Origin: Desulfatibacillum sp.
GTDB taxonomy: Bacteria > Desulfobacterota > Desulfobacteria > Desulfobacterales > SpSt-501
Length of the DNA: 64,000 nt
Direction of reading: 5' to 3'
Assembly (NCBI GenBank): GCA_020725555.1
Contig: DYEU01000016.1
Coordinates: forward strand, 62,001-126,000
Position numbers and translations under genes: made by a program
Notes under the pieces: model-generated
Databases searched by the model: none
Told to the model about the DNA's origin: nothing
The model's input: only the letters and a program-made list of their open reading frames with translations
Shown: positions 28,971-41,248 of the stretch, piece by piece
Layout of the letters: every line of letters begins with the position of its first letter
Numbering within the stretch: position 1 is the stretch's first letter

Positions 28971-30299
28971 ATGGCTGAAGAAGCGATCAAGATCAGCGGT
29001 AAAAAGAAGAGCACCTTTCTCGACAAGGTGCGGGAGCTCCTGCCGGAGGGTGGGAACCTGAACCTCTGCCTCACCTGCGGGGCCTGCTCCTCCGGCTGCC
29101 CGGCGACGGGGCTGGAGGGGCTGGACCCGCGCAAGTTCCTGCGCATGGCGGCGCTCGGCCTGGACGAGGAGATCCAGAAGTCCAACTGGCCCTGGATGTG
29201 CACCATGTGCTGGCGCTGCATCTACGTCTGCCCGATGAAGATCGACATCCCGCAGCTCGTCTACCACGCGCGCAAGCTCTGGCCGCGGGAGAACCGCCCC
29301 AAGGGCATCCGCGGCTCCTGCGACATGGCGCTCAAGCACGACTCCTGCAGCGCCATGGGCGCCTCCGAGGACGACTTCCGCTTCGTGGTCGAGGACGTGC
29401 TCGAGGAGGTGCGCAAGACCCAGGTCGGCTGGGAGACCCTCGAGGCCCCGATCAACAAGAAGGGGGCGACCTACTTCCTCAACCAGAACTCGCGCGAGCC
29501 GGTCACCGAGCCCGACGAAATGGTGCCGCTCTGGAAGATCATGCACGTCGTGGGCGCCGACTGGACCTACGGCACCAAGGGCTGGGGCGCGGAGAACTAC
29601 TGCATGTTCCTCGCCGACGACGAGGCCTGGAAGCACATCGTGGAGGTGAAGGCCAAGGCCGTGGATGACCTAGGCTGTAAATACTGGGTCAACACGGAGT
29701 GAGGGCACGAACTCTTCGCAGTCCGGGCCGGACTGAAAAAGTTCAACATCCCCCACAAGTTCGAGATCACCACCATCATCCAGCTCTACGCCCAGTGGAT
29801 CCGCGAGGGCAAGCTCAAGGTCAACGCCGACTGGAACAAGGACCTCAAGGTCAAGTTCACCGTCCAGGACCCCTGCAACCAGGTGCGCAAATCCTTCGGC
29901 GACGCCTACGCCGAGGACCTGCGCTTCGTCGTCAAACAGGCCGTGGGCGAGGAGAACTTCGTCGACATGACCCCCAACCGCTCGAACAACTACTGCTGCG
30001 GCGGGGGCGGCGGGGCGCTCCAGGCGGGCTACCACGAGGCGCGGCGCACCTTCGGCAAGATCAAGTTCGACCAGATCATGGCGACGGGCGCAAGCTACGT
30101 GATCGCCCCCTGCCACAACTGCCACTCCCAGATCCACGACCTGGCCGAGCACTACGAGGGCGGCTACCACACGGTCCACCTCTGGACGATCCTCTGCCTC
30201 GCCATGGGGATCCTCGGCCCCAACGAGCGCGCCTACCTCGGCGAGGACCTGGCGGGGCTCCTGGTGCCGGAGACGCGCGAGGCCGAAGAAGACGAGTAG
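28971..30299 (+). CDS. selenocysteine-containing HdrD/DsrK-like Fe-S oxidoreductase
   Basis: A single 442-residue frame read through TGA at 29700-29702 as selenocysteine (residue 244). The N-terminal part has two 4Fe-4S motifs, CLTCGACSSGCP (33-44) and CTMCWRCIYVCP (77-88), as in HdrC/GlpC. Two CCG-type domains follow. The first is degenerate and ends in YWVNTE-Sec-GHELFAVR, where relatives such as DsrK and HmcF have ECGH. The second is intact, with Cys302, CC at 342-343 and CxxC at 381-384, the ligand set for the Hdr active-site cluster. It probably passes electrons between a quinone or thiol/disulfide partner and cytoplasmic carriers. A SECIS-like hairpin follows the TGA. An AAAGGAGG ribosome site precedes the ATG. 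Annotated as two genes, this would look broken; both halves are in frame. Confidence 0.88.
29719..29735 (+). promoter_or_regulatory. bacterial SECIS hairpin
   Basis: CAGTCC (29719-29724), loop GGGCC, GGACTG (29730-29735): a perfect 6-base stem with GG at the start of the apical loop, 22 bases after the in-frame TGA. Distance and loop fit the bacterial SECIS recognised by SelB. Confidence 0.8.
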
Positions 30300-30302
30300 C
30301 CC

Positions 30303-30489
30303 TCCCCGCGGGGAACCCCGCAAACGACAAAAAACCCCGGTCCGTTCGCGGATCGGGGTTTTTGCTTTCGCGGGCGAAGGAACCCTTGGCTCAGGCCGCC
30401 TTCTCCAGCCGCACGGCGCAGACCTTGAACTCGGGGATCCCGCAGACCGGGTCGAGCGCCGCGTACGTCAGCCGGTTCGCCGCCGTCTG
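30303..30489. repeat. junction repeat, left copy
   Basis: About 187 bases nearly identical to 34816-35003 in the same orientation. It spans the bidirectional terminator and the last ~33 codons of fdhA. The left copy follows the intact Hdr-like gene; the right copy belongs to the intact fdhA. The few differences include GCGTACG versus GCGTTCG. The two copies bracket the Rieske/cytochrome b cassette. Confidence 0.85.
30335..30363. terminator. bidirectional terminator after the Hdr-like gene
   Basis: CCCCGGTCCG, loop TTCG, CGGATCGGGG, with an A-run before and a T-run after. One mismatched pair (G/T) is present. It lies 36 bases after the Hdr-like stop codon and can act in both directions. Confidence 0.85.
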
Positions 30490-30490
30490 G
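30391..30490 (-). pseudogene. fdhA 3-prime end fragment
   Basis: The minus strand encodes the last ~33 residues of formate dehydrogenase (AANRLTYAALDPVCGIPEF through the terminal RLEKAA), nearly identical to the intact fdhA at 34905. Homology stops near 30490; no promoter, start codon or catalytic part remains. It is a leftover of a duplicated fdhA end at the left edge of the inserted cassette. Confidence 0.8.
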
Positions 30491-30866
30491 GAGCAATGGA
30501 TGAGGCCCTGGGCGCAAGAGCCCTGTCTCCGGGACTGGACGCCCTTGCTTCCCCGCCCTGCTTCCGCATCTCCCGGCCGGTTGGGCTGATCGCCCGCCCC
30601 GGCAGCAAGGCCTGCGACGGCGACCCAAGAGACCCCACGGCCCCGCTCGCCACCCGTCACTTTCTCGGCGGGGAGGTCCTGACCGCTTCCATGGCATCCC
30701 GCACTTACTGCGGCGAAAACGGCGGGTTTGGCCTCCCTTTGCAGATTGTGGTTGATCTCGATTGCCATGATGTGGTATCAGCGACATCAAGAAGTGAAGG
30801 TCTGCTTGTAAATTGAGGGTCGTTTTTTTACTGACGATCATTTTCCCGGCCCCGGAAAGGATTCCC
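30491..30866. other. cassette 5-prime region without recognised gene
   Basis: Nothing recognisable is encoded between the fdhA fragment and the Rieske gene; a 106-codon plus-strand frame (30496-30816) resembles no family I know. The last 130 bases are less GC-rich. They contain TTGATC, 18 bases, TATCAG (about 30751-30780), a weak promoter candidate for the cassette. Confidence 0.45.
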
Positions 30867-31379
30867 ATGGCCGACACCTGCCGCACCGCCGAGGGCAAAG
30901 CCGCCGCGGAGGATGCTCCGTGCCTTTCACGCCGCAGCTTCATCGCCACTTCCGCGCTGGCGGGCGGCGTGGTTGTGCTCGCGGCCATCCCCATCGTATC
31001 GACCGTCGTCCTTCCCGCACCGAGAACGGGGGTCGGGAAATGGGTCGATTTCGGCCGGGCGGACCAGTTGACCCCCACGGACTTCAGCATGCTGTCCTAT
31101 GAATTCATGGTGAAAGACGGTTGGCAGGATCTCCCGCAGCGGGGGTTTGTTTGGGCCAGGGCGGACGACAAGGGGGGCGTGCAAGTCTTTTCCTCCACCT
31201 GCTCCCACTTGGCCTGCAACGTGATCTGGAACAAGGAGAAGGGCCTGTTTCTTTGCCCGTGCCACAGCGGCATGTTCGATGCGAACGGGTTGCCGGCGGG
31301 AGGCCCTCCCCGAAAACCGCTCACGCTCCTGCCGCACAAAATCGTCGAAGGCAAACTCATGGTCCACATCACCCTTTAA
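30867..31379 (+). CDS. Rieske 2Fe-2S protein
   Basis: A 170-residue Rieske protein. A twin-arginine-type leader (SRRSFIATSALAGG, residues 21-34) runs into a membrane anchor of about 20 residues. Box I is CSHLAC (Cys112, His114; Cys117 for the disulfide) and box II is CPCHSG (Cys130, Cys132, His133), so all cluster ligands and the disulfide pair are present. The ATG at 30867 has GGAAAGG six bases upstream and gives a typical N-terminus; the frame is open further upstream. With the cytochrome b two genes downstream it would form the quinol-oxidising core of a bc-type complex. Confidence 0.92.
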   Translation: MADTCRTAEGKAAAEDAPCLSRRSFIATSALAGGVVVLAAIPIVSTVVLPAPRTGVGKWVDFGRADQLTPTDFSMLSYEFMVKDGWQDLPQRGFVWARADDKGGVQVFSSTCSHLACNVIWNKEKGLFLCPCHSGMFDANGLPAGGPPRKPLTLLPHKIVEGKLMVHITL

Positions 31380-31416
31380 ACGACCCCCACGCGCGGGCTT
31401 TGCAAGGAGGCGATGC

Positions 31417-32406
31417 ATGCCTAAACGATGGCAAGTTGCTCTGTTCCTCGGCGTACTGATGGGTTTCACCGGCCTGTTCATCTTCTCGAATGGCGCCGTC
31501 GGGGCCGCCAAGCAGACCCTGACCGCCGTCTACTCCAAGACTGCGCCCGCAGGCCTGGATGACCCCGCCTGGGGCAAGGTCAAGTCGCTCGAGGTGCCCT
31601 TCGAGGGCAAGGAGAAATTCGCGGGCAAGAAAGCCGCGGTATCGGCCAAGGCCGTGTACACGGACAGCGAAATCGTTTTTTGGTTCAACTGGAAGGACCC
31701 CACGCTGAGCGTCACCAAGGAGGCCTGGAAATTCGACGGGCAAAACTGGGCGCGGCAGAAGGGCGACGAGGACCGGATCTCGCTGCTCTTCGAAATCAAC
31801 CGCATCCAAAATTTCGCCACCAAAGGCTGCGCCGTGGTGTGCCACGTCCCCGCGGGAGCGCCCAACGCCAAGGAAGGCAAGTTCGGGACCGCCACCGAAG
31901 CCGAAAAGGGCGACCTGTGGCACTGGAAGGCGGCCCGCTCCGACCCCGCCGGCTACGCCGACGACGGCTACCTGACCAAGATCGGCGACACCAAGGGCGG
32001 CCGGAAACCGGATGCCGGCAAGGGCGGCGACAAGCCGAACATCACCGACGACAAAACCAAGCCCAAGTACATGCTGGCGCCGGGCAAGAAACTCGGCAAG
32101 CACAACATCCTGCTGGCGGCGGATGCGGTGGAGATCACGGACTACACGATCTTCAAGGCCGGCGACGTCATCACCTACCGCATGCCGCTGGCGGCGGAAG
32201 GATCGTTCGGCGACATCAAGGCCGTCAGCCGTTACGGCGACGGCGCCTGGACGGTGATGCTCTCGCGCAAGCTCAATACCGGCAACGAGGACGATGTGGC
32301 CTTCGACCCCAGGAAGAAATACAATTTCGCCATGGCGCTGTTCGATGATTCCAAGGACTACGACTCCTACGATTCCGAGGTGCTGAGCCTCGAATTCAAA
32401 AAATAG
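31417..32406 (+). CDS. ethylbenzene-dehydrogenase-gamma-like haem protein, first copy
   Basis: A 329-residue exported protein with an N-terminal signal or anchor (about residues 6-30) and the EB_dh-type beta-sandwich pattern: LDDPAWGKVKSLEVPF, VSAKAVYTDSEIVFWFNW, KGDLWHWKAARSDP, and a C-terminal RKYNF-like strand (DPRKKYNFAMALFDD). EB_dh proteins bind haem b and serve as electron-transfer subunits. This one also carries CAVVCH at 138-143, a CxxxCH variant of the c-type haem site. An AAGGAGG site lies six bases before the ATG. It is paralogous to the gene at 33570, and both flank a cytochrome b. It may take the place of cytochrome c1. Confidence 0.78.
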   Translation: MPKRWQVALFLGVLMGFTGLFIFSNGAVGAAKQTLTAVYSKTAPAGLDDPAWGKVKSLEVPFEGKEKFAGKKAAVSAKAVYTDSEIVFWFNWKDPTLSVTKEAWKFDGQNWARQKGDEDRISLLFEINRIQNFATKGCAVVCHVPAGAPNAKEGKFGTATEAEKGDLWHWKAARSDPAGYADDGYLTKIGDTKGGRKPDAGKGGDKPNITDDKTKPKYMLAPGKKLGKHNILLAADAVEITDYTIFKAGDVITYRMPLAAEGSFGDIKAVSRYGDGAWTVMLSRKLNTGNEDDVAFDPRKKYNFAMALFDDSKDYDSYDSEVLSLEFKK

Positions 32407-32457
32407 CCGGCGACGGCCGATCGGCCCTGACCCAGCCGCTAACCGGGATCGGATGCC

Positions 32458-33537
32458 ATGAGCGAGGTGCAGGTTCACGCCGCGGGGCAAAGACCGTCTG
32501 CCGCCGCGGCGCGGGAAGGGTGCGGGCGGCTGCTCCGGGTGCGGGTGCCGGCGGACGCCATCTGCTGGCACCGCTTCTTCGGCGCCTTGCAGCTGGCGTT
32601 GATCGGCCTGCTGTTCCTGACCGGGGTGTTGATGGCCTTGGCCTACACCCCGGTGCCGGGCACGGCTTACGACAGCGTCGACTATTTCCAGTTCAGCCTG
32701 CCTTTCGGGGACGTGGTCCGGGGGGTTCACCATTACGCCTGGAACCTCTTGCTGGTGGTGATGGCACTGCACCTCCTGCGGGCCCTGGTCCTCGGCGCCT
32801 ACAAAGCTCCGCGGCAGCCGGTCTGGGTCTCCGGGGTGCTGTTCCTGCTGGTGATCCCGCTGTTCATCATCACCGGCGACCTCCTGCCCTGGGACCAGAA
32901 GGGGTACTGGTCGACCCAGGTGCGCTTCAGCATCATCGCCTCCGTCCCGCTTGTCGGCGATTTCCTGGTCCAGCTGCTCCGCGGCGGGCCCTTGACCGGG
33001 ATCGTGGCCTTGACCCGGTGTTACGTTCTCCACATTCTCCTGCTGCCCGGCGTCCTGCTCCTGCTGATCGGCCTGCACATGTATTTTTTGGCCACCCGCG
33101 GGCTTTCGGGCCCCCCGGCGGGAGAGGCCGCCGCGAGGCCGCAGGTGCCCTTCCTGCCGACCATCGCCAACCGCTGGTTGGCCGTGTTCCTGGCGTCGGC
33201 GATCGGGCTGGGCCTGGCGGCCCGGCTGTGGCCCGCCCCTCTCGGCGACCCCGCTGATCCGACCGACTCATCGTTCATCCCCCGCCCGGAATGGTGGGTG
33301 CTCGCCCTCAACCAGTTGGTCGCCATTTTCAAGGGCCCCTTCATGGTCATCGGCTCGGCGATCATCCCCGGCGCGTTGATTTTCTTGCTGGCGGCGCTGC
33401 CCTTTCTCGACCGCTCGCCGGAGCGCCGGCCCTCCAAGCGCCGGGGGGTCCTGCTGGGGGCGGCGGTCGTGCTCGCCGCCTGGGCCGTACTGTCCGTCAT
33501 GGGCTACGTCGAACACTTCGTGCAGCCGGAACCGTGA
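32458..33537 (+). CDS. cytochrome b (b6/bc1-type)
   Basis: A 359-residue membrane protein with about seven to eight helices. The first four carry the two-haem core: His91 and His105 in helix B, His192 and His207 in helix D, with 14 residues between the second pair as in cytochrome b6. The PEWW tetrad (277-280) stands where the quinol-site PEWY is normally found. The C-terminal three helices resemble subunit IV, so this is a fused b protein, somewhat short. It lies between two EB_dh-like genes and downstream of a Rieske gene; no cytochrome c1 or f gene is present. Confidence 0.9.
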   Translation: MSEVQVHAAGQRPSAAAAREGCGRLLRVRVPADAICWHRFFGALQLALIGLLFLTGVLMALAYTPVPGTAYDSVDYFQFSLPFGDVVRGVHHYAWNLLLVVMALHLLRALVLGAYKAPRQPVWVSGVLFLLVIPLFIITGDLLPWDQKGYWSTQVRFSIIASVPLVGDFLVQLLRGGPLTGIVALTRCYVLHILLLPGVLLLLIGLHMYFLATRGLSGPPAGEAAARPQVPFLPTIANRWLAVFLASAIGLGLAARLWPAPLGDPADPTDSSFIPRPEWWVLALNQLVAIFKGPFMVIGSAIIPGALIFLLAALPFLDRSPERRPSKRRGVLLGAAVVLAAWAVLSVMGYVEHFVQPEP

Positions 33538-33569
33538 GGCCGTCGGGACGGACCGCAAAGAGGTGGGCC

Positions 33570-34562
33570 ATGAGCAAATGGTGGGTCGGCGGCATGGCCG
33601 CCGTCTTGTGTGCCGGCGCCTTCGCGGCGGCGTCCCCGCCCGAGGATGCAGGCGTCATGACGATCACCGCCCGTTACACCCAAAACGTTCCGACCGGGAT
33701 CGACGACCCGATCTGGCAGCGTGTCGCACAGGCGCAGGTCCCGGTGTCCGGCCGCCTGGAGATGGCCGGCGTCAGGGGCATGGTTTCGACCCGCGCCCTC
33801 TATACGGACCGGGATCTCCATTTCCTGCTTAGTTGGGAGGACCCGACCCGCAGCGTCACCAAGGGGTCGTGGCAGTACGACGGGCAGAAATGGGTGCACC
33901 TCGCGGGGGACGAGGACCGCATCGCGCTGCTCTTCGAGATCCAGCGGATCCAGCACTTTTCATCGCGCAGCTGCGCGGTCGTCTGCCACAGCCCCGCCGA
34001 CCTGCCCCGCGAAAAGTGGAGCCTGGCGACGAAAAGCCCGGTGGAAAAGGGCGACCTCTGGCACTGGAAGGCGGCCCGCTCGGATCCCTACGGCTATGCC
34101 GACGACGGCTGGCTCACGGTGGCGGGCAACCCGTCGGGATCCTACCGCGAAACCGGCCGCAGAAACGACGCCGGAAACGGCGGCGACGTGAAGAACGAAA
34201 CCCCCGACGGGTCGCGCCCGCTCTACATGCAGGACCCCGCGCGCCGGCCCTCGGTACCCGGTTTCCTGCTCCGGGAGGAAGCCGTCCCCATCCTCGACTA
34301 TTCCCGCTTCAAGGCGGGTGACGTGATCCCTTACCGCCTGCCCGTGAAGCCGGACGGCTCGCGCTTCGACGTGAAGGCCGCAAGCCGCTATGCCGAAGGC
34401 CGCTGGACGGTCATGCTGAGCCGCCGCTTGAACACCGGCCGCGAGGACGATGTCGTTTTCGACCCCCGCAAGCGCTTCAGCTTCGCCATCGCCGTCTTCG
34501 ACGACACCGGCGGCGACCACTCCAAGACCACGCGCAGCCTGGTGCTGGTGTTCAAACGCTGA
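33570..34562 (+). CDS. ethylbenzene-dehydrogenase-gamma-like haem protein, second copy
   Basis: A 330-residue paralogue of the gene at 31417, sharing IDDPIWQRV, the HFSSRSCAVVCHSP haem-like motif (Cys135, Cys139, His140), GDLWHWKAARSDPYGYADDGW and the C-terminal EDDVVFDPRKRFSFAIAVFDD. A signal peptide covers about residues 1-22. It likely binds haem and faces the periplasm, as an electron acceptor from the Rieske/cytochrome b core. The two copies have diverged clearly, so they are probably not redundant. It starts 32 bases after the cytochrome b gene. Confidence 0.78.
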   Translation: MSKWWVGGMAAVLCAGAFAAASPPEDAGVMTITARYTQNVPTGIDDPIWQRVAQAQVPVSGRLEMAGVRGMVSTRALYTDRDLHFLLSWEDPTRSVTKGSWQYDGQKWVHLAGDEDRIALLFEIQRIQHFSSRSCAVVCHSPADLPREKWSLATKSPVEKGDLWHWKAARSDPYGYADDGWLTVAGNPSGSYRETGRRNDAGNGGDVKNETPDGSRPLYMQDPARRPSVPGFLLREEAVPILDYSRFKAGDVIPYRLPVKPDGSRFDVKAASRYAEGRWTVMLSRRLNTGREDDVVFDPRKRFSFAIAVFDDTGGDHSKTTRSLVLVFKR

Positions 34563-34699: not shown

Positions 34700-34815
34700 C
34701 GGACCCGCGGACGGCTTCCGCTTCGTGGTCGAGGACCCGCTCGAGGAGGTGCGCAAGACCCGGGTCGGCGGGGAGACCCCCGCGGTCCCGATCCGCAAAA
34801 GGGGGGCGCCCCACT
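34700..34815 (+). pseudogene. fragment of the Hdr-like gene
   Basis: About 110 bases are collinear, without gaps, with the Hdr-like gene at about 29360-29476. They encode FRFVVEDPLEEVRKTRVGG against FRFVVEDVLEEVRKTQVGW. The fragment then jumps straight into the terminator repeat, skipping the equivalent of about 825 bases that include the selenocysteine codon. It has drifted more than the terminator part and cannot be functional. Confidence 0.75.
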
Positions 34816-35003
34816 TCCCCGCGGGGAACCCCGCAAACGACAAAAAACCCCGGTCCGTTCGCGGACCGGGGTTTTTGCTTTCGCGGGCGAAGGAACCCCT
34901 CGGCTCAGGCCGCCTTCTCCAGCCGCACGGCGCAGACCTTGAACTCGGGGATCCCGCAGACCGGGTCGAGCGCCGCGTTCGTCAGCCGGTTCGCCGCCGC
35001 CTG
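34816..35003. repeat. junction repeat, right copy
   Basis: Partner of 30303-30489. It covers the terminator and the last codons of the intact fdhA. On its left it joins a truncated Hdr-like fragment instead of the intact gene, so the two copies are reciprocal remnants of one Hdr-terminator-fdhA junction. Confidence 0.85.
34842..34876. terminator. terminator of fdhA
   Basis: A perfect 10-base stem, CCCCGGTCCG-TTCG-CGGACCGGGG (34848-34871), with an A-run on the left and a T-run on the right. It lies 28 bases beyond the fdhA stop and is symmetrical, so it works for the minus-strand fdhA. Confidence 0.88.
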
Positions 35004-37676
35004 GGCGTAGTGGAAGGGGATGAAGACCGTTCCTTGCACGGCGTTGGGCGAGACTTTCAGCCGCACGGTGATGCTCCCGCGGCGCGAGGCGACGCGGACG
35101 AGGCAGCCGTCGTCGAAGCCCAGGGCGCGGGCGTCCTCCAGGGAGATCTCGACGAAGCTCTCCGGGGCAAGCTCGTTCAACCCCTCGGTCTGGCCGGTCA
35201 TGGTGCGGGTGTGATACTGGGGCAGCACCCGGCCCGTGGTGAGGAAGAGGGGGTAGTCGGCGTCGGCCTCCTCGGCGGGCGGCCGGTAGTCGATCGCGTG
35301 GAAGACGCCTTTGCCGATCGTGAACTGCTCGCGGTGCAGGATCGGGGTCCCCGGGTGCTCCTCGTTGGGGCAGGGCCAGTGGAGGCCCTCCTCCTCGATC
35401 CGCGCGTAGGTGATCCCGGCGTAGGAGGGGGTGACGGCGCGGATCTCCTCGAAGATCGCCCGCTCGTCGGCGTAGGCGAGCGGCCGGCCCAGGCGGGCGG
35501 CGAGATCGCAGAGGATCTTCCAGTCGGCCCGCGCCTCGCCGGGGGGCTCGACCGCCTTGCGCACGCGCTGCACGCGGCGCTCGGTGTTGGAGAAGGTGCC
35601 CTCCTTCTCGGCGAAGCAGGCCGAGGGGAAGACGACGTGGGCGAGCTTCGCCGTTTCGGTGAGGAAGATGTCCTGCACGACGAGGAACTCGAGCCGGCGC
35701 AGGCTCTTTTCGACGTGGCCGAGATCGGCGTCGGAGACGGCCGGGTTCTCGCCGATGATGTAGAGCCCCTTGAGCTTGCCGGCGAGCGCGGCCGGCATCA
35801 TCTCCGTCACCTTCATCCCGGCGAAGGTGGGAAGGCGCCCCACCCCCCAGGCCGCGGCCATTTTTTTGCGCGCGTTCTCGTCGGCCACCTTCTGGTAGCC
35901 CGAGAAGACATCGGGCAGCGCGCCCATGTCGCAGGCGCCCTGGACGTTGTTCTGGCCGCGCAGCGGGTTCACCCCCGTCCCGGGTTTCCCGATGTGGCCG
36001 CAGAGCATGGCGAGGTTGGCGAGCGACTTCACGTTGTCCGTGCCCGTCGTGTGCTGGGTGATCCCCATGCAGTAGACGATGCTCGCGCGGCCGGCCCGGG
36101 CGTAGAGGCGGGCGGCCTCCGCCAGCTCGGCGGCCGGGATCCCCGTGATCTTCTCCACGGCCGCGGGGCTGTAGGCCTCGAGGGTTTTTTGGAGCGCCTC
36201 GAAGCCCGCCGTGCGCGCCTCCACGAACTCCCGGTTGTAGAGCCCCTCGGCGACGATCACGTGCATCATGCCGTTCAGCCAAGCGACGTCGGTCCCCGGC
36301 CGCGGCCTGAGCCAGCGCTCGGCGTAGCGGGCGATCACGATCCGCCGCGGGTCGACGACGATCAGCTTCTTCCCCTGGAGCACGACGGCGCGCTTGATGA
36401 AGGTCGAGATGACGGGGTGCGTCTCGGTCGTGTTCGAGCCGGTGACAAGGAAGAGGTCGGCTTCCTCGAGGTCCCCGATCGTGTTCGTCATCGCCCCGCT
36501 GCCGAAGGAGGCGGCCAGACCGGCCACCGTGGCGGAATGTCAGAGGCGGGCGCAGTGGTCGATGTGGTTCGTCTCGAGCACCGCGCGGGCGAACTTCTGG
36601 GCGACGTAGTTCTCCTCGTTCGTGATGCGCGCCGAGGAGAGAACCCCCAGGCTCTCGGGCCCGGATTTCTCCTTGATGGCCGTTAGCCTGCGGGCCGCCA
36701 GATCGAGCGCCTCCTCCCAGGAGGCCTCGCGGAAGGAGTCCCCCTCGCGGATGAGCGGCCGGGTGAGGCGCTCGGGCGAGGAGACGAAGTCGAAGCCGAA
36801 GCGGCCCTTGACGCAGAGGCTCCCCAGGTTGGGTTTCGCACCCTCGACCCCGGTCACCTTGACGATGCGGTTGTCCTTGACGTGGAGATCCTGCTGGCAG
36901 CCGACCCCGCAGTAGGCGCAGGTCGTGCGCACGCGGCGGGTCTCGCCGGGGCGGGCCGCGTTGCGGGCGTCCTTTTCGGTCAGCGCCCCCGTCGGGCAGG
37001 CCTGCACGCACTCGCCGCAGAAGACGCAGTCGGACTCGCGGTAGGGGCGGTCGCCGGCGGCGATGATCTTGGCCTTGGCCCCGCGGTAGCCGAAGTGGAT
37101 CGCCTGGTTCACCTGGATCTCGTTGCATGCCTGGACGCAGCGGCCGCAGAGGATGCAGCGGCCGAAATCGCGCACGATGAAGGGGTTCACGTCCTCGATC
37201 GGGTAGCGCGGCGGGGTCGGGCTGAAGCGGCCGCCGGTCACCCCGTAGCGCCAGGCGAGCTCCTGGAGGCGGCAGCCCCCCCAGGCGGGGCAGGGCTGGA
37301 CGTTGCCCCCGGCCTTCCGGAGGCGCGCGAGATAGTCGTCGTAGCTCTTGCCGTCCGAGCCCTTGACGAGGCAGTTGTGGTTCCCCGAGGCGAGAAGAAG
37401 CTGGAGAATGAGCTTGCGCGCCTCGATCACCTTCTCCGACTCGGTTGCGACCACCATGCGCGGGGCGGCCGGCATGGCGCAGGAGGCGACCAGCGCGCGC
37501 CCCCCCTGCACCTCGACCACGCACATGCGGCAGGCGCCGGTGGGGGCGGTGCGCTTCAGGTGGCAGAGGGTGGGGATGTCGATCCCGTTTCGCCGGGCGA
37601 CCTCGAGGATCGTCTCGCCCGGGGTGAACTCGAGCTCCTTGCCGTCGATCGTGAGGGTCTGCGTTTGCTGGCTCAT
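34905..37676 (-). CDS. fdhA: formate dehydrogenase alpha subunit, selenocysteine-containing
   Basis: A 923-residue molybdenum or tungsten formate dehydrogenase read through TGA at 36542-36540 as selenocysteine (residue 379), in the context HCARL-Sec-HSATVAGL, the exact place of the catalytic Sec or Cys. Domains in order: 2Fe-2S ferredoxin (about 1-80, with TLCHLKRTAPTGACRMCVVE); a His-Cys 4Fe-4S region; a double 4Fe-4S ferredoxin (CILCGRCVQAC and CVFCGECVQACP); the fourth cluster CAYCGVGC; then the bis-MGD catalytic domain. There is no Tat signal, so the enzyme is cytoplasmic, of the NAD- or ferredoxin-linked type. No beta subunit lies beside it. A SECIS hairpin follows the TGA and a strong promoter lies upstream. 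Confidence 0.95.
36510..36528 (-). promoter_or_regulatory. fdhA SECIS hairpin
   Basis: On the minus strand GGTGGCC, loop GGTCT, GGCCGCC: a 7-base stem with one G-U pair, starting 11 bases after the TGA. The GGUCU loop matches that of the E. coli fdhF element, with its GG 18 bases after the codon. Confidence 0.88.
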
Positions 37677-37942: not shown

Positions 37943-37980
37943 TGATGGAATTTATTTGATGGAATTTATGATGGAATTTA
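37942..37980. repeat. short tandem repeat at the tadG end
   Basis: Three head-to-tail units of TTGATGGAATTTA (period 13-14, the last slightly shortened), running into the tadG stop codon. Possibly a slippage product next to the dispersed repeat. Confidence 0.75.
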
Positions 37981-39249
37981 TTTAACCAGGACTGGAATTT
38001 CCGCTAAAATTCCAAAATTTTGACCACCGGTAAGCCCGATAGGTTTATGCATTGTACATGACGGTTTAAAGTATACAGTTTTGGATCCATAGCCATATGT
38101 GTTTGAACCAAATTTATTATTCCAGTAAGCAGGTTGTCCATCGGGGAGCTTAAGATTAAAGTGATCGACAAAATGATTCCAGTTTGATTTTCGATTTTCT
38201 TCCGTGTCTGGCGTAAGTGGCGCTTTCCAGTTATCCATTTTCACAGGGACATTTTCAAATTTCGGGTCCTTTCCGCTTGAGGTAATCCAAACCACTTCAA
38301 TATTTACAGCCCCAACTACATTCTCGCACGATTGCACTTTGATATCCGAACCACATTCAATAACCGGGAGGGTTAGTCGCCAACTTGTTGTTCTCTCTGG
38401 ATATGCGTTTCTGTTATTTTTTAAATTTGGTGACCAACATTCCCTCAAGTCTTGAAAGCTACTTTCTAGAACACCATTGGTCGCCATTAAAGGGCTCCCG
38501 AAAACTATTGGATTCGCGTTACCCTTACAAATGCTTCGGCTCACCGTATTAGCCGAGGCCGCACCACTGCATGAAGTCGGCTGTTCAAAATTTGTCCAAC
38601 CAGCTGTATCACCTGTATCGGACAACATCCTTCCCACATTGCACACGTAGTCTTCTCCTGACAACAAAGCTTCTCTACAAATAGCGATTGGTTGGTCCGC
38701 CCCAAATGGCGGAAGTGTCCCAGCAAATCCTATATAGGCTACAGCAGTTGCTTCAATGACAAACCCTGGTATGCCAAAAATTCTAGCAAAAAACGGCTGC
38801 GCAGGTTGATTATCAACAGTTTTACGCGTAGTGATCACCCTAATAGCATTAATAAAATCAATATTTGTATCTAAAGCGGCCGTACTAACGTTGACCAAGG
38901 ATACAGGCTCTAAAGAAGGATTTGGAGTAAAAGTGCGAGTTGAAAAACTCCAATGGCCTCGTTCGATGCTTTTAACTTGCACCGCTGCCTTTTCGCTAAA
39001 ATTTTGATTGACGTAATCGAGTGCCATGGCGTTTGCACCGGGGTTTACTGAAGTGCCATCGTTTATATACAAAACCTGCGCACCAGCCAACGCACCGGCA
39101 TCAGCTGCATTTTGAAGTTCCCCTTTCACTATATAGAGGTATCCCAAATCTATTGCAATTGCAGCAACGCCCAATAATGCAATAATTGAAATGGCTACGA
39201 TAACTATAGCTACTCCGTTTTGATTAAAAATTAGTTTTATGTTTTTCAT
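37978..39249 (-). CDS. tadG: Tad pilus pseudopilin-like protein TadG
   Basis: A 423-residue protein with one N-terminal hydrophobic helix (GVAIVIVAISIIALLGVAAIAIDL split around residues 12-36) and the TadG/Tad motif YIVKGELQNAADAGALAGAQ right after it. A long, cysteine-containing extracellular part follows. TadG-like proteins are membrane-anchored components at the base or tip of Flp pili. The gene is markedly richer in A and T than its neighbours, and its codon choice (AAA, ATT, GAT) is unlike theirs, as in tadE. It is the last gene of the locus. Confidence 0.82.
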   Translation of the reverse strand: MKNIKLIFNQNGVAIVIVAISIIALLGVAAIAIDLGYLYIVKGELQNAADAGALAGAQVLYINDGTSVNPGANAMALDYVNQNFSEKAAVQVKSIERGHWSFSTRTFTPNPSLEPVSLVNVSTAALDTNIDFINAIRVITTRKTVDNQPAQPFFARIFGIPGFVIEATAVAYIGFAGTLPPFGADQPIAICREALLSGEDYVCNVGRMLSDTGDTAGWTNFEQPTSCSGAASANTVSRSICKGNANPIVFGSPLMATNGVLESSFQDLRECWSPNLKNNRNAYPERTTSWRLTLPVIECGSDIKVQSCENVVGAVNIEVVWITSSGKDPKFENVPVKMDNWKAPLTPDTEENRKSNWNHFVDHFNLKLPDGQPAYWNNKFGSNTYGYGSKTVYFKPSCTMHKPIGLTGGQNFGILAEIPVLVK

Positions 39250-39256
39250 CGCCGAA

Positions 39257-39715
39257 TCACTCCATTCGCATTTGGGTCGATGCTTCTAAATTAATTTCAC
39301 CTGGTAACGCAACGCCCGCGGCACTTACCAAACCTGAAATGACATTAAAAACCAAGAACTGATATGGATACACGATATTCACACTGAGCAACGTTCCTCT
39401 CTGCCGCGGTTCAGGGGGACTAATGGTGATTTTCGCATTTTTATCACCAAAAGATATTAAATGATTGGATAGATATTTATTGACCTCTTCTTCGATTTCA
39501 GCATCTTTCAACGGGGCATAGGAGGGCGTGCCTGTAGAGGTATCAACATTATACACAACTCCTCTTCGCGCCCCCTCTCTGCTTGCGTTTGTGATCATCG
39601 CTTTGTTATACATTATCAAGCCGAATTCTATTACCCCGAACAACATAAGCAGTAGAATCGGCAAAATAATTGCGAACTCTACAATGGTGGCTCCTTTTTG
39701 GTCACGCCAACACAT
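39257..39715 (-). CDS. tadE: TadE-like pilus pseudopilin
   Basis: A 152-residue TadE-family pseudopilin. The N-terminal QKGATIVEFAIILPILLLML (with Glu at position 5 after the Gly cut site) and the following ASREGARRGV are characteristic. TadE is processed by the prepilin peptidase and needed for pilus assembly. Like tadG it is AT-rich compared with the rest of the locus. It lies seven bases before tadG. Confidence 0.88.
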   Translation of the reverse strand: MCWRDQKGATIVEFAIILPILLLMLFGVIEFGLIMYNKAMITNASREGARRGVVYNVDTSTGTPSYAPLKDAEIEEEVNKYLSNHLISFGDKNAKITISPPEPRQRGTLLSVNIVYPYQFLVFNVISGLVSAAGVALPGEINLEASTQMRME

Positions 39716-39745
39716 CGTATTTCCTCCCCAACTTTTTATGGCTTC

Positions 39746-41248
39746 TTATCCTCCAACACGGTTTCCTATTGATTTAGGTTTGCCCCAATACAGGGCTTGA
39801 TTTTTCTCAACCAGGTCTCTACCGATCAGCAAACGTATATTGCTGCCCATGCTCTCGAGCTCATACAGCTCGGCATCGGCCGAAATCTCGGGGAGCGCCG
39901 CGAGCACGCGGCGGGCCTCGGCCAGGTTCTCGCCGTAGTAGAAGATCTTGGTGTGGTAGTGGTCGAAGGAGTGCGCATCCATCACGCGGACGACCTGGAA
40001 ACCCAGGCGGCGAAGGTGCGCGGCCACGCGCGCGGCGGCGCCCTTGACGCCGTTGCCGTTTGCGACCTCGACCGCGACGATCCCCTCTTCGGCCGTGCGG
40101 CGGGGCTCGGGGGCGATCTGCCAGCCGGCCTGCGCCGCGCTCGCGGCAACGAGGATCCGCTCCTCGTGCTCCTCCGGGTCGACCCGGGTGGCGAGCTCGG
40201 CCCGCGGCGGGGCGATCGCTTTCAGCTCGCGAACGACGGGCTGGGGGTCGTAGCCGATCGCCGCAGCCGGCGGTTTTTTCGGCGTTTGCGGCTCGAGGGC
40301 GAGCGCGGAGACGGCGTAGGTCCGCCCGGCCTCCTCGGCCGCGACCGCCCGCTCGGCCCCGGCCGGCGGGGAAACGAGTGCCGCGGCAGGGATCACCTCG
40401 ATCCCCGGCGCCGATTCGGCCGCAGGCTGCGCCTCCCCCTTGCCCAGGTTTCGGTTGATCAAACGGAAGCGCGCCACGGGGTCGACGCCCGGGCTTGCCG
40501 CGCGCTCAAGCGGCAGAAGATCCGGCAGGGAAGGGGCCTCGCGGGCGGCCGGGTCCGCCTGCCCGGGGGTCGGCCTTGCGCGCAGCGCGGCGATCACGCG
40601 CTCGGCCTCGTCCCCCCGGCCGAGGTCCCTGAGCACGCGGGCGAGGCGTTTTTCGGCGTTTTCGGCCGTGTCGAGCGCTGCGAACTGGGCGCGCGCCTCC
40701 TCGTATCGGCCTTCCCTCGCCAGCGCGAGGCCCAGGTTGTTCCGGTAGCGCGGCTCGTTTCCGTTGCGGGCGATCGCCTGCTCGAAGGCCTCGATCGCCT
40801 GCCTGACGTCGCCGCGCAGGAGGTGGGAGTAGCCCAGGTTGTTGTAGGCGTAGTCGAGCGTGGGGTCGATCCTGAGGGCGAGCCGGTAGTACTCGATCGC
40901 CGCCTCGTGGTCGCCCAGGTTGTCGAAGGAGACCCCTATCGCGTTGTAGGCCTTGGGGTTTCCCGGGCTGCGCAGCAGCGACTGCTTCAGCTCGTCGATC
41001 GCGAGCTGGTGCCGGGAGTGCTGCTGGAAGTAGAGCGCGAGCTGGTAGTGGGCCTCGGCCTCGCCGTCCACCCGGCGGACCGAGGCGGCGAACTTGCGGA
41101 TCTCGGCCTCGGAGAGGGGGTCGGGCCGCGCGTCGCGCGGCGAGATCCGGCTCTCCTCGGTCGCCGCCTCGCGCGTGTGGCACCCGGCGAGCGGGAGCGC
41201 CGCCAAGAGAGCCGCCGCCAGGAAAGCCGCCGTCCGCATCGTCTTCAT
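39746..41248 (-). CDS. TPR lipoprotein with LytR C-terminal domain
   Basis: A 500-residue lipoprotein (lipobox LPLAGC near residue 23). TPR repeats cover about residues 65-220 (AYNAIGVSFDNLGDHEAAIEYYRLAL and similar). After a Pro/Ala-rich linker comes a LytR_C domain (VAVEVANGNGVKGAAARVAAHL through RLLIGRDL). The TPR part resembles TadD, the lipoprotein that assists secretin assembly. The LytR_C part is more often found on cell-wall enzymes, and its presence here is unusual. The last ~30 codons are AT-rich, so the composition boundary of the tadE-tadG stretch falls inside this gene near 39840. Confidence 0.8.
   Translation of the reverse strand: MKTMRTAAFLAAALLAALPLAGCHTREAATEESRISPRDARPDPLSEAEIRKFAASVRRVDGEAEAHYQLALYFQQHSRHQLAIDELKQSLLRSPGNPKAYNAIGVSFDNLGDHEAAIEYYRLALRIDPTLDYAYNNLGYSHLLRGDVRQAIEAFEQAIARNGNEPRYRNNLGLALAREGRYEEARAQFAALDTAENAEKRLARVLRDLGRGDEAERVIAALRARPTPGQADPAAREAPSLPDLLPLERAASPGVDPVARFRLINRNLGKGEAQPAAESAPGIEVIPAAALVSPPAGAERAVAAEEAGRTYAVSALALEPQTPKKPPAAAIGYDPQPVVRELKAIAPPRAELATRVDPEEHEERILVAASAAQAGWQIAPEPRRTAEEGIVAVEVANGNGVKGAAARVAAHLRRLGFQVVRVMDAHSFDHYHTKIFYYGENLAEARRVLAALPEISADAELYELESMGSNIRLLIGRDLVEKNQALYWGKPKSIGNRVGG

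Follow-up and report, generated by a model that had tools for sequence, protein, structure and literature searches.

A conserved Desulfobacterota gene cassette likely to encode a bc-type quinol oxidoreductase with EB_dh-family proteins in the place of cytochrome c1

We describe a cassette of four genes in a 64,000-nucleotide stretch of a Desulfatibacillum sp. genome (assembly GCA_020725555.1, contig DYEU01000016.1, positions 62,001 to 126,000; hereafter the window). The cassette occupies window positions 30867-34562 on the plus strand and likely encodes a bc-type quinol oxidoreductase in which proteins of the EB_dh family, named for ethylbenzene dehydrogenase, stand in for cytochrome c1. The c1 or f subunit is the changeable part of Rieske/cytochrome b complexes. 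The genes follow one another in the order Rieske, EB_dh-1, fused cytochrome b, and EB_dh-2; their preferred starts are 30867, 31417, 32458, and 33570, which leave intergenic gaps of 32-51 nt. A preliminary description of the window had placed four adjacent plus-strand genes here, with correct coordinates, and had put forward the EB_dh proteins as candidates for the missing c1. That proposal is now supported by a genome without a c1 match and by the conservation of the four genes as a unit.

The Rieske and cytochrome b genes encode an intact core. The Rieske [2Fe-2S] protein (30867..31379, +) matches Pfam PF00355 (E 6e-7) and has a signal of the twin-arginine translocation (TAT) type at its N-terminus, as judged from TAT models. 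In alignment A3, its cluster motif, CSHLAC...CPCHSG, is complete and provides the two Cys and two His expected of bc-type complexes; the motif is present in 28 of 31 Rieske rows, and the 3 misses (L056, L021, and L022) are all rows from outside the cassettes. The fused cytochrome b (32458..33537, +; b6 plus subunit IV type) matches PF13631 (E 2.5e-41) and PF00033 (E 2e-36), and its nearest match in the PDB is the b6 protein of b6f complexes. Alignment A2 contains conserved His residues at 91/92, 105, 192, and 207, which provide two bis-His haem sites, and a Qo motif, PEWW, at the site of quinol oxidation (33286..33297, +; invariant columns 277-280). PEWW occurs in all 26 module-type cytochrome b rows (25 under a stricter pattern), and the b6-type 14/15 spacing of the His residues in 25 of the 26. 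The complete Rieske protein and the fused cytochrome b with four haem His and PEWW, both part of the preliminary description, are confirmed by these matches and alignments. Covalent haem on cytochrome b, as in b6f complexes, was considered and rejected, as inspection of alignment A2 by eye revealed no invariant Cys.

The remaining two genes encode EB_dh-1 (31417..32406, +) and EB_dh-2 (33570..34562, +). Both belong to PF09459, with scores of 176.5 bits (E 1e-51) and 165.8 bits (E 2e-48), respectively, at a cut-off of 33.3. The evidence on fold covers EB_dh-2 only: an AlphaFold2 model built from 50 sequences, with a predicted local distance difference test (pLDDT) score of 85, superimposes on EbdC (2ivf_C; Z 20.7, 2.3 A over 188 residues) and on NXR-C (7b04_C; Z 19.8, 2.4 A over 196). 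The next structural matches are CBM9-like modules at Z 13-14, far below these two. The preliminary description called the pair exported paralogues; the paralogy stands, and a hydrophobic N-terminal stretch is clear in EB_dh-1, whereas none exceeds the threshold in EB_dh-2, where the N-terminus is signal-like by eye only.

Both EB_dh proteins carry a CXnCH motif of the kind that attaches haem in c-type cytochromes, here in the form CX3CH (CAVVCH). It lies at 31828..31845 (+) in EB_dh-1, where it is a candidate site of covalent haem, and at 33972..33989 (+) in EB_dh-2 (alignments A1 and A4). All 11 rows of alignment A1 have the motif, as do 59 of 59 full-length EB_dh relatives, the window pair included; the latter are the 72 distinct EB_dh stretches minus 13 with too little coverage of the profile. 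Among those 13, the stretches from L054 and L055 have CX3CH, and the pieces from L025, L023, L049, and L041 stop short of the motif; the distant proteins of L060 and L024 also belong to this group. Since CX3CH is found in 59 of 59, the pair look more like c-type proteins than haem b carriers, and the earlier statement that no c-type cytochrome is present is not supported. The genome has the corresponding maturation genes: 2 matches to the cytochrome c assembly family PF01578 exceed the cut-off.

The fate of the old haem ligands points the same way. Passages of PMC8387239 give Met155 and Lys305 as the axial ligands of haem b in NXR-C, and likewise in ethylbenzene dehydrogenase. In our alignment, Met155 falls ten residues before the W of an LWHWKA core. 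At that position, the 59 CX3CH proteins have Thr (56), Ala (1), Val (1), or Tyr (1) and never Met; the four haem-b-type relatives inspected (those of G019 and G023 and two from haloarchaea) all have Met there. In 48 of the 59, there is no Cys other than the motif pair beyond residue 25 of the matched stretch. In the EB_dh-2 model, CX3CH and the old Met position both lie between the strands 117-125 and 160-167. We read this as loss of the Met and gain of CX3CH in the same loop of the EB_dh fold, and on these sequence features we consider it rather likely that the haem is bound covalently. Solitary CX3CH EB_dh genes adjoin ResB-like and CcsA-like genes, without Rieske or cytochrome b, at L050:6989-10289 and L051:6905-10185; Pfam matches for this arrangement come from L050 only.

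The four genes recur together. One scan of the named genomes with the EB_dh alignment yielded 36 loci, mostly from metagenome-assembled genomes titled Desulfobacterales, Deltaproteobacteria, or Syntrophobacterales, and a small number from other phyla. In 22 of the 36, the full set of four genes is contiguous: 18 in the order Rieske-EB-cytb-EB and 4 in the order Rieske-EB-EB-cytb. These 22 include some flawed copies, namely L025 (masked bases in EB_dh-2), L043 (cytochrome b broken and EB_dh-2 cut), and L025 and L046 (a Rieske gene cut by the contig end). Elsewhere, a contig end or masked bases interrupt L030, L039, and L054, L041 and L053 are fragments, and EB_dh occurs without Rieske or cytochrome b at L050, L051, L055, and L057-L060. 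A different arrangement is seen at a Nitrospinota locus (L056:2070-7821): behind a response regulator gene lie genes for a CX3CH EB_dh and an FAD/Fe-S oxidoreductase, together with cytochrome b, Rieske, and a cytochrome c in which a row of three stretches is matched; this is possibly a different EB_dh-containing bc-type complex. At L049:1-573, an extra EB_dh fragment (PF09459, 103.8 bits) precedes a complete cassette, and some loci may hold three copies. Within the genus, 3 of 7 genomes have EB_dh, and a search of a plasmid collection with EB_dh produced 2 weak matches only.

So that loci would not be chosen by their EB_dh genes, cytochrome b was used as a second bait, with a threshold of 540 bits. 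In the order, 19 of 291 sampled genomes scored at least 540, and in the phylum 4 of 395 did so; together these are 20 distinct genomes, and the next score was 274. Rieske and EB_dh genes adjoin the cytochrome b gene in 20 of 20, and both EB_dh genes are present in 19, the twentieth (G007) ending at a contig end. Of 14 loci fetched by cytochrome b, 13 are the same records as in the EB_dh scan; the genomes overlap and the rule of selection differs. The preliminary description had suggested looking for genomes in which EB_dh genes repeatedly neighbour Rieske and cytochrome b genes, and had held that a lack of conservation of the four-gene order would refute the proposal: the recurrence is seen with both baits, and 18 of the 22 contiguous loci have the gene order of the window. 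The conclusion that the four genes form a conserved unit is supported.

Could the Rieske protein nevertheless pass its electrons to a conventional partner? The genome of the window (3.59 Mb in 35 contigs, with an estimated completeness of 100%) has no match to cytochrome c1 (PF02167); cytochrome f was not searched for. A cytochrome c1 elsewhere in the genome, able to pair with this Rieske and cytochrome b, is rejected on that result. There is a single bc-type cytochrome b (one PF00033 match), and the cassette pair are the only PF09459 proteins. An ordinary cytochrome c encoded elsewhere might still accept electrons from the Rieske protein, with the EB_dh pair serving in docking, sensing, or sugar binding. 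The resemblance of the EB_dh-2 model to CBM9 modules fits such roles, as do the other CXXCH proteins encoded beside the oxidase in related genomes and the Nitrospinota locus, where a cytochrome c accompanies EB_dh, cytochrome b, and Rieske. We nonetheless regard this explanation as unlikely: EB_dh accompanies the module-type cytochrome b in 20 of 20 genomes, CX3CH is invariant among full-length EB_dh relatives, and EbdC and NXR-C, at Z about 20, are much closer in fold than CBM9.

The two EB_dh proteins are not interchangeable copies. In a tree of 50 EB_dh rows, six of them single EB_dh proteins that made up a third group, the second copies, 22 in number, all fall into a single clade (support 100/97); the duplication is therefore older than the divergence of the sampled cassettes. 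Near the C-terminus, all 22 second copies have S-K and all 22 first copies have S-Y: EB_dh-2 of the window keeps the Lys (...HSK...), and EB_dh-1 has Tyr in its place. By ungapped extension of the alignment, the K of the second copies falls within two columns of Lys305 of NXR-C. This suggests that the distal haem ligands differ between EB_dh-1 and EB_dh-2.

A second explanation takes the EB_dh proteins for haem b gamma subunits that serve a type II molybdoenzyme whose genes lie elsewhere, with Rieske and cytochrome b as its quinol dehydrogenase. Its model is the nar operon of the haloarchaea Haloferax larsenii and Halarchaeum, which combines Rieske, cytochrome b, molybdoenzyme, FeS subunit, and an EB_dh-related protein; passages of PMC8301774 describe the last as a putative gamma subunit or donor. 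Comparable clusters exist in the same order as the window genome. L021 (G023) and L022 (G019) encode type II dimethyl sulfoxide reductase-like enzymes with an EB_dh of the haem b type, and have Rieske, a b6-like cytochrome b, and a subunit-IV-like protein of their own; by their gene content, they are a bacterial counterpart of the haloarchaeal layout. Partial alpha matches are stronger in other cassette carriers (251 bits in G004, 198 in G003, and 194 in G031) than in the window genome, whose best type II alpha match covers 244 of 913 positions at 98 bits; the matches in G019 and G023 are full-length and score 863-882 bits. All 58 genomes, G019 and G023 among them, stay below the curated cut-off of 984.75. 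In the haloarchaea, the EB_dh gene follows NarG-like and NarH-like genes, and its product lacks CXnCH and keeps the Met, whereas the cassette contains no NarGH-type molybdoenzyme, and none was seen by eye to recur beside it among the neighbour families and ten loci. The cassette proteins are further set apart from gamma subunits by having CX3CH and having lost the Met ligand, and we hold the molybdoenzyme explanation to be improbable. A function as hydrocarbon (ethylbenzene) dehydrogenase was likewise rejected, as the genome has no good type II alpha match.

The cassette was compared with known systems. It shares with bc1 and b6f complexes the Rieske protein, the four haem His with the Qo motif, and the b6-type 14/15 spacing; it differs from bc1 in coming from a genome without a PF02167 match. 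EbdC and NXR-C share the PF09459 family and fold with the cassette proteins, and the C-terminal Lys position appears to be kept in EB_dh-2; they hold haem b by Met and Lys and partner with a molybdoenzyme, whereas the cassette proteins have CX3CH, no Met at that position, and a cytochrome b/Rieske partner. The Ext cluster of Geobacter also combines Rieske (ExtO) and a b6-like cytochrome b (ExtP) with proteins other than c1, here ExtQ and multihaem cytochromes c; no EB_dh protein is mentioned in the passages available from that source (PMC5877670). The window cytochrome b scores 157 bits against the ExtP model, under its cut-off of 290.

A close parallel is the cytochrome ba complex of the Sulfolobales (cbsAB/soxNL), in which, according to passages of PMC5461723, SoxL is the Rieske protein, SoxN the cytochrome b, and CbsA the c1 analogue, together with CbsB. 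The abstract of PMC12808453 names haem a for this complex. Both systems join Rieske and cytochrome b in one gene cluster with a haem protein that is called a c1 analogue in the archaeal complex and is proposed as one in the cassette; the archaeal complex has a single CbsA and haem a, whereas the bacterial cassette has two EB_dh paralogues, each with CX3CH. Sulfolobus acidocaldarius, used as a control genome, also yields a PF09459 match above the cut-off; this is a match at the level of the whole genome, and the protein behind it is presumably CbsA. The preliminary description knew of no complex with such a composition; the cytochrome ba complex and the haloarchaeal nar operons, as presented in the passages cited above, show that related ones had been described. 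A bacterial cassette with two CX3CH EB_dh proteins was not found among the papers listed in searches of the open-licence PubMed Central literature, as judged by titles, the beginnings of abstracts, and passages. As far as could be found, the exchange of c1 for such a haem protein has been described only from archaea.

From these genes we infer a complex, covalent haem, a direction of electron flow, a Q-cycle, a type of quinone, and a periplasmic acceptor, which would fit together as follows. The complex probably oxidises menaquinol. Cytochrome b would oxidise quinol at PEWW; one electron would travel via haems bL and bH to a second quinone site, as in a Q-cycle, and the other would pass to the mobile Rieske cluster. 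From there, it would reach one or both of the presumably periplasmic EB_dh-fold proteins instead of cytochrome c1 or f. Each would carry one haem, probably attached through CX3CH with the His of the motif as proximal ligand; in EB_dh-2, the ancestral Lys may serve as the distal ligand. The EB_dh proteins would then hand electrons on to a periplasmic acceptor.

Several observations count against this proposal. All 36 loci come from metagenome-assembled or environmental genomes, and L040 has a single EB_dh gene although its contig continues. The model of cytochrome b is poor (pLDDT 50, from 6 sequences) and was not used for docking. As a haem-attachment pattern, CX3CH is much rarer than CXXCH, and its two Cys could instead form a disulfide. 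The distant EB_dh proteins of L024 and L060 lack CXnCH over their whole sequences, so that CX3CH marks a subgroup of EB_dh and not the whole family. In 5 of the 59 CX3CH proteins, a Met stands 1 or 2 residues off the old ligand position (9 or 12 before the W). No acceptor gene was seen by eye to recur beside the cassette among the neighbour families and loci. The same genome has genes for a haem-copper oxidase and, close to it, an ActB-like protein, and another quinol oxidoreductase may thus already fill that role.

The ActB-like label refers to an open reading frame a few kilobases from the oxidase, with Fer4 and molybdopterin-binding domains. The genome also has dsrA, a marker of dissimilatory sulfite/sulfate reduction, and clusters that resemble alternative complex III with a cbb3-type oxidase occur in genomes with both dsrA and the cassette: L069 (G004), L070 (G031), L071 (G007), and partly L068 (G000:C3). 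In G004, G007, and G031, the gene order is presumably that of this pairing. A haem-copper oxidase is present in 6 of 7 relatives with cassette genes (G000, G003, G004, G007, G031, and G042, the last showing only an EB_dh-2 fragment; not G009) and in 23 of the remaining 51 genomes (58 in total). We rejected this co-occurrence as evidence: the numbers are too small, and congeners without the cassette also have an oxidase. Two-component regulatory genes lie directly upstream in 7 of 10 cassette loci inspected; the regulator at L044 is of the sigma-54-activating type with PAS domains.

The cassette lies between two direct repeats of 190 bp (97.4% identity). The left copy (30303..30491) comprises a terminator-like hairpin and the 3' end of fdhA; the right copy (34816..35005) continues into the intact fdhA. 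A 114-bp fragment at 34705..34818, 86.8% identical to positions 29365-29478 of the upstream hdrCB-like gene, appears to be a scar of insertion. In four congeners (G001, G002, G003, and G004), convergent hdrCB and fdhA genes lie side by side without the cassette, which G003 and G004 carry elsewhere in the genome; fdhA was not seen beside hdrCB in the other 3 of 7 fetched stretches (a second G004 copy, G005, and G009). To judge from these junctions, the cassette is a movable unit at this site, and no integrase or transposase was recognised by eye among the open reading frames of the inserted stretch.

This site bears on a third explanation, in which the cassette would be fed by its window neighbours, the formate dehydrogenase (fdh) and the HdrCB-like protein (hdrCB). 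The genes are close: hdrCB ends 0.57 kb upstream of the cassette, and fdhA ends 0.34 kb downstream. The uninterrupted arrangement in the congeners indicates that these neighbours are incidental, the junction sequence that flanks the cassette is duplicated, and neither gene was seen as a neighbour in the other cassette loci inspected. We consider the functional link largely refuted and this explanation very improbable.

We return to the reading of the EB_dh proteins as substitutes for c1, and to its wider form. Tentatively, and with slightly less than even confidence, we propose a bacterial class of bc-type complexes in which c1 is replaced by two anciently duplicated, covalent-haem EB_dh cytochromes with unequal distal ligands, encoded by a movable cassette with a patchy distribution among sulfate reducers. 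If this is true, the two haems would differ in potential, so that a single Rieske/cytochrome b core might reduce two acceptors or drive a relay of two haems. The proteins would also constitute a natural experiment in how one fold changes from a haem b to a haem c protein, and the cassette a new way of wiring quinol oxidation to periplasmic acceptors. For annotation, the four genes would provide a marker set in Desulfobacterota, where the name "ethylbenzene dehydrogenase" would wrongly imply hydrocarbon metabolism.

The neighbouring genes have features of their own. No match was obtained in an Rfam search of the window at gathering thresholds, and no tRNA in scans of the window and three small loci. 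The upstream gene (28971-30299) encodes a fused HdrC/HdrB-like Fe-S protein; its best NCBIfam matches, HmcF, TmcB, and DsrK among them, stay under their cut-offs. It has an in-frame TGA at residue 244 (...NTE-U-GHELF...), where Cys is expected, and this is a candidate selenocysteine site; in most top-scoring homologues, the open frame also begins near the TGA position. The downstream gene (34905-37676, minus strand) encodes a formate dehydrogenase-like alpha subunit with an in-frame TGA at residue 379 (HCARL-U-HSATVAG), presumably the expected selenocysteine site of FdhA-type enzymes. Further on, positions 37978-39715 form a low-GC (guanine plus cytosine) island: the GC content is 44% in 38001-40000 and about 68-70% to either side; two of its genes, labelled by eye, look like TadE/TadG-type pilus-assembly proteins.

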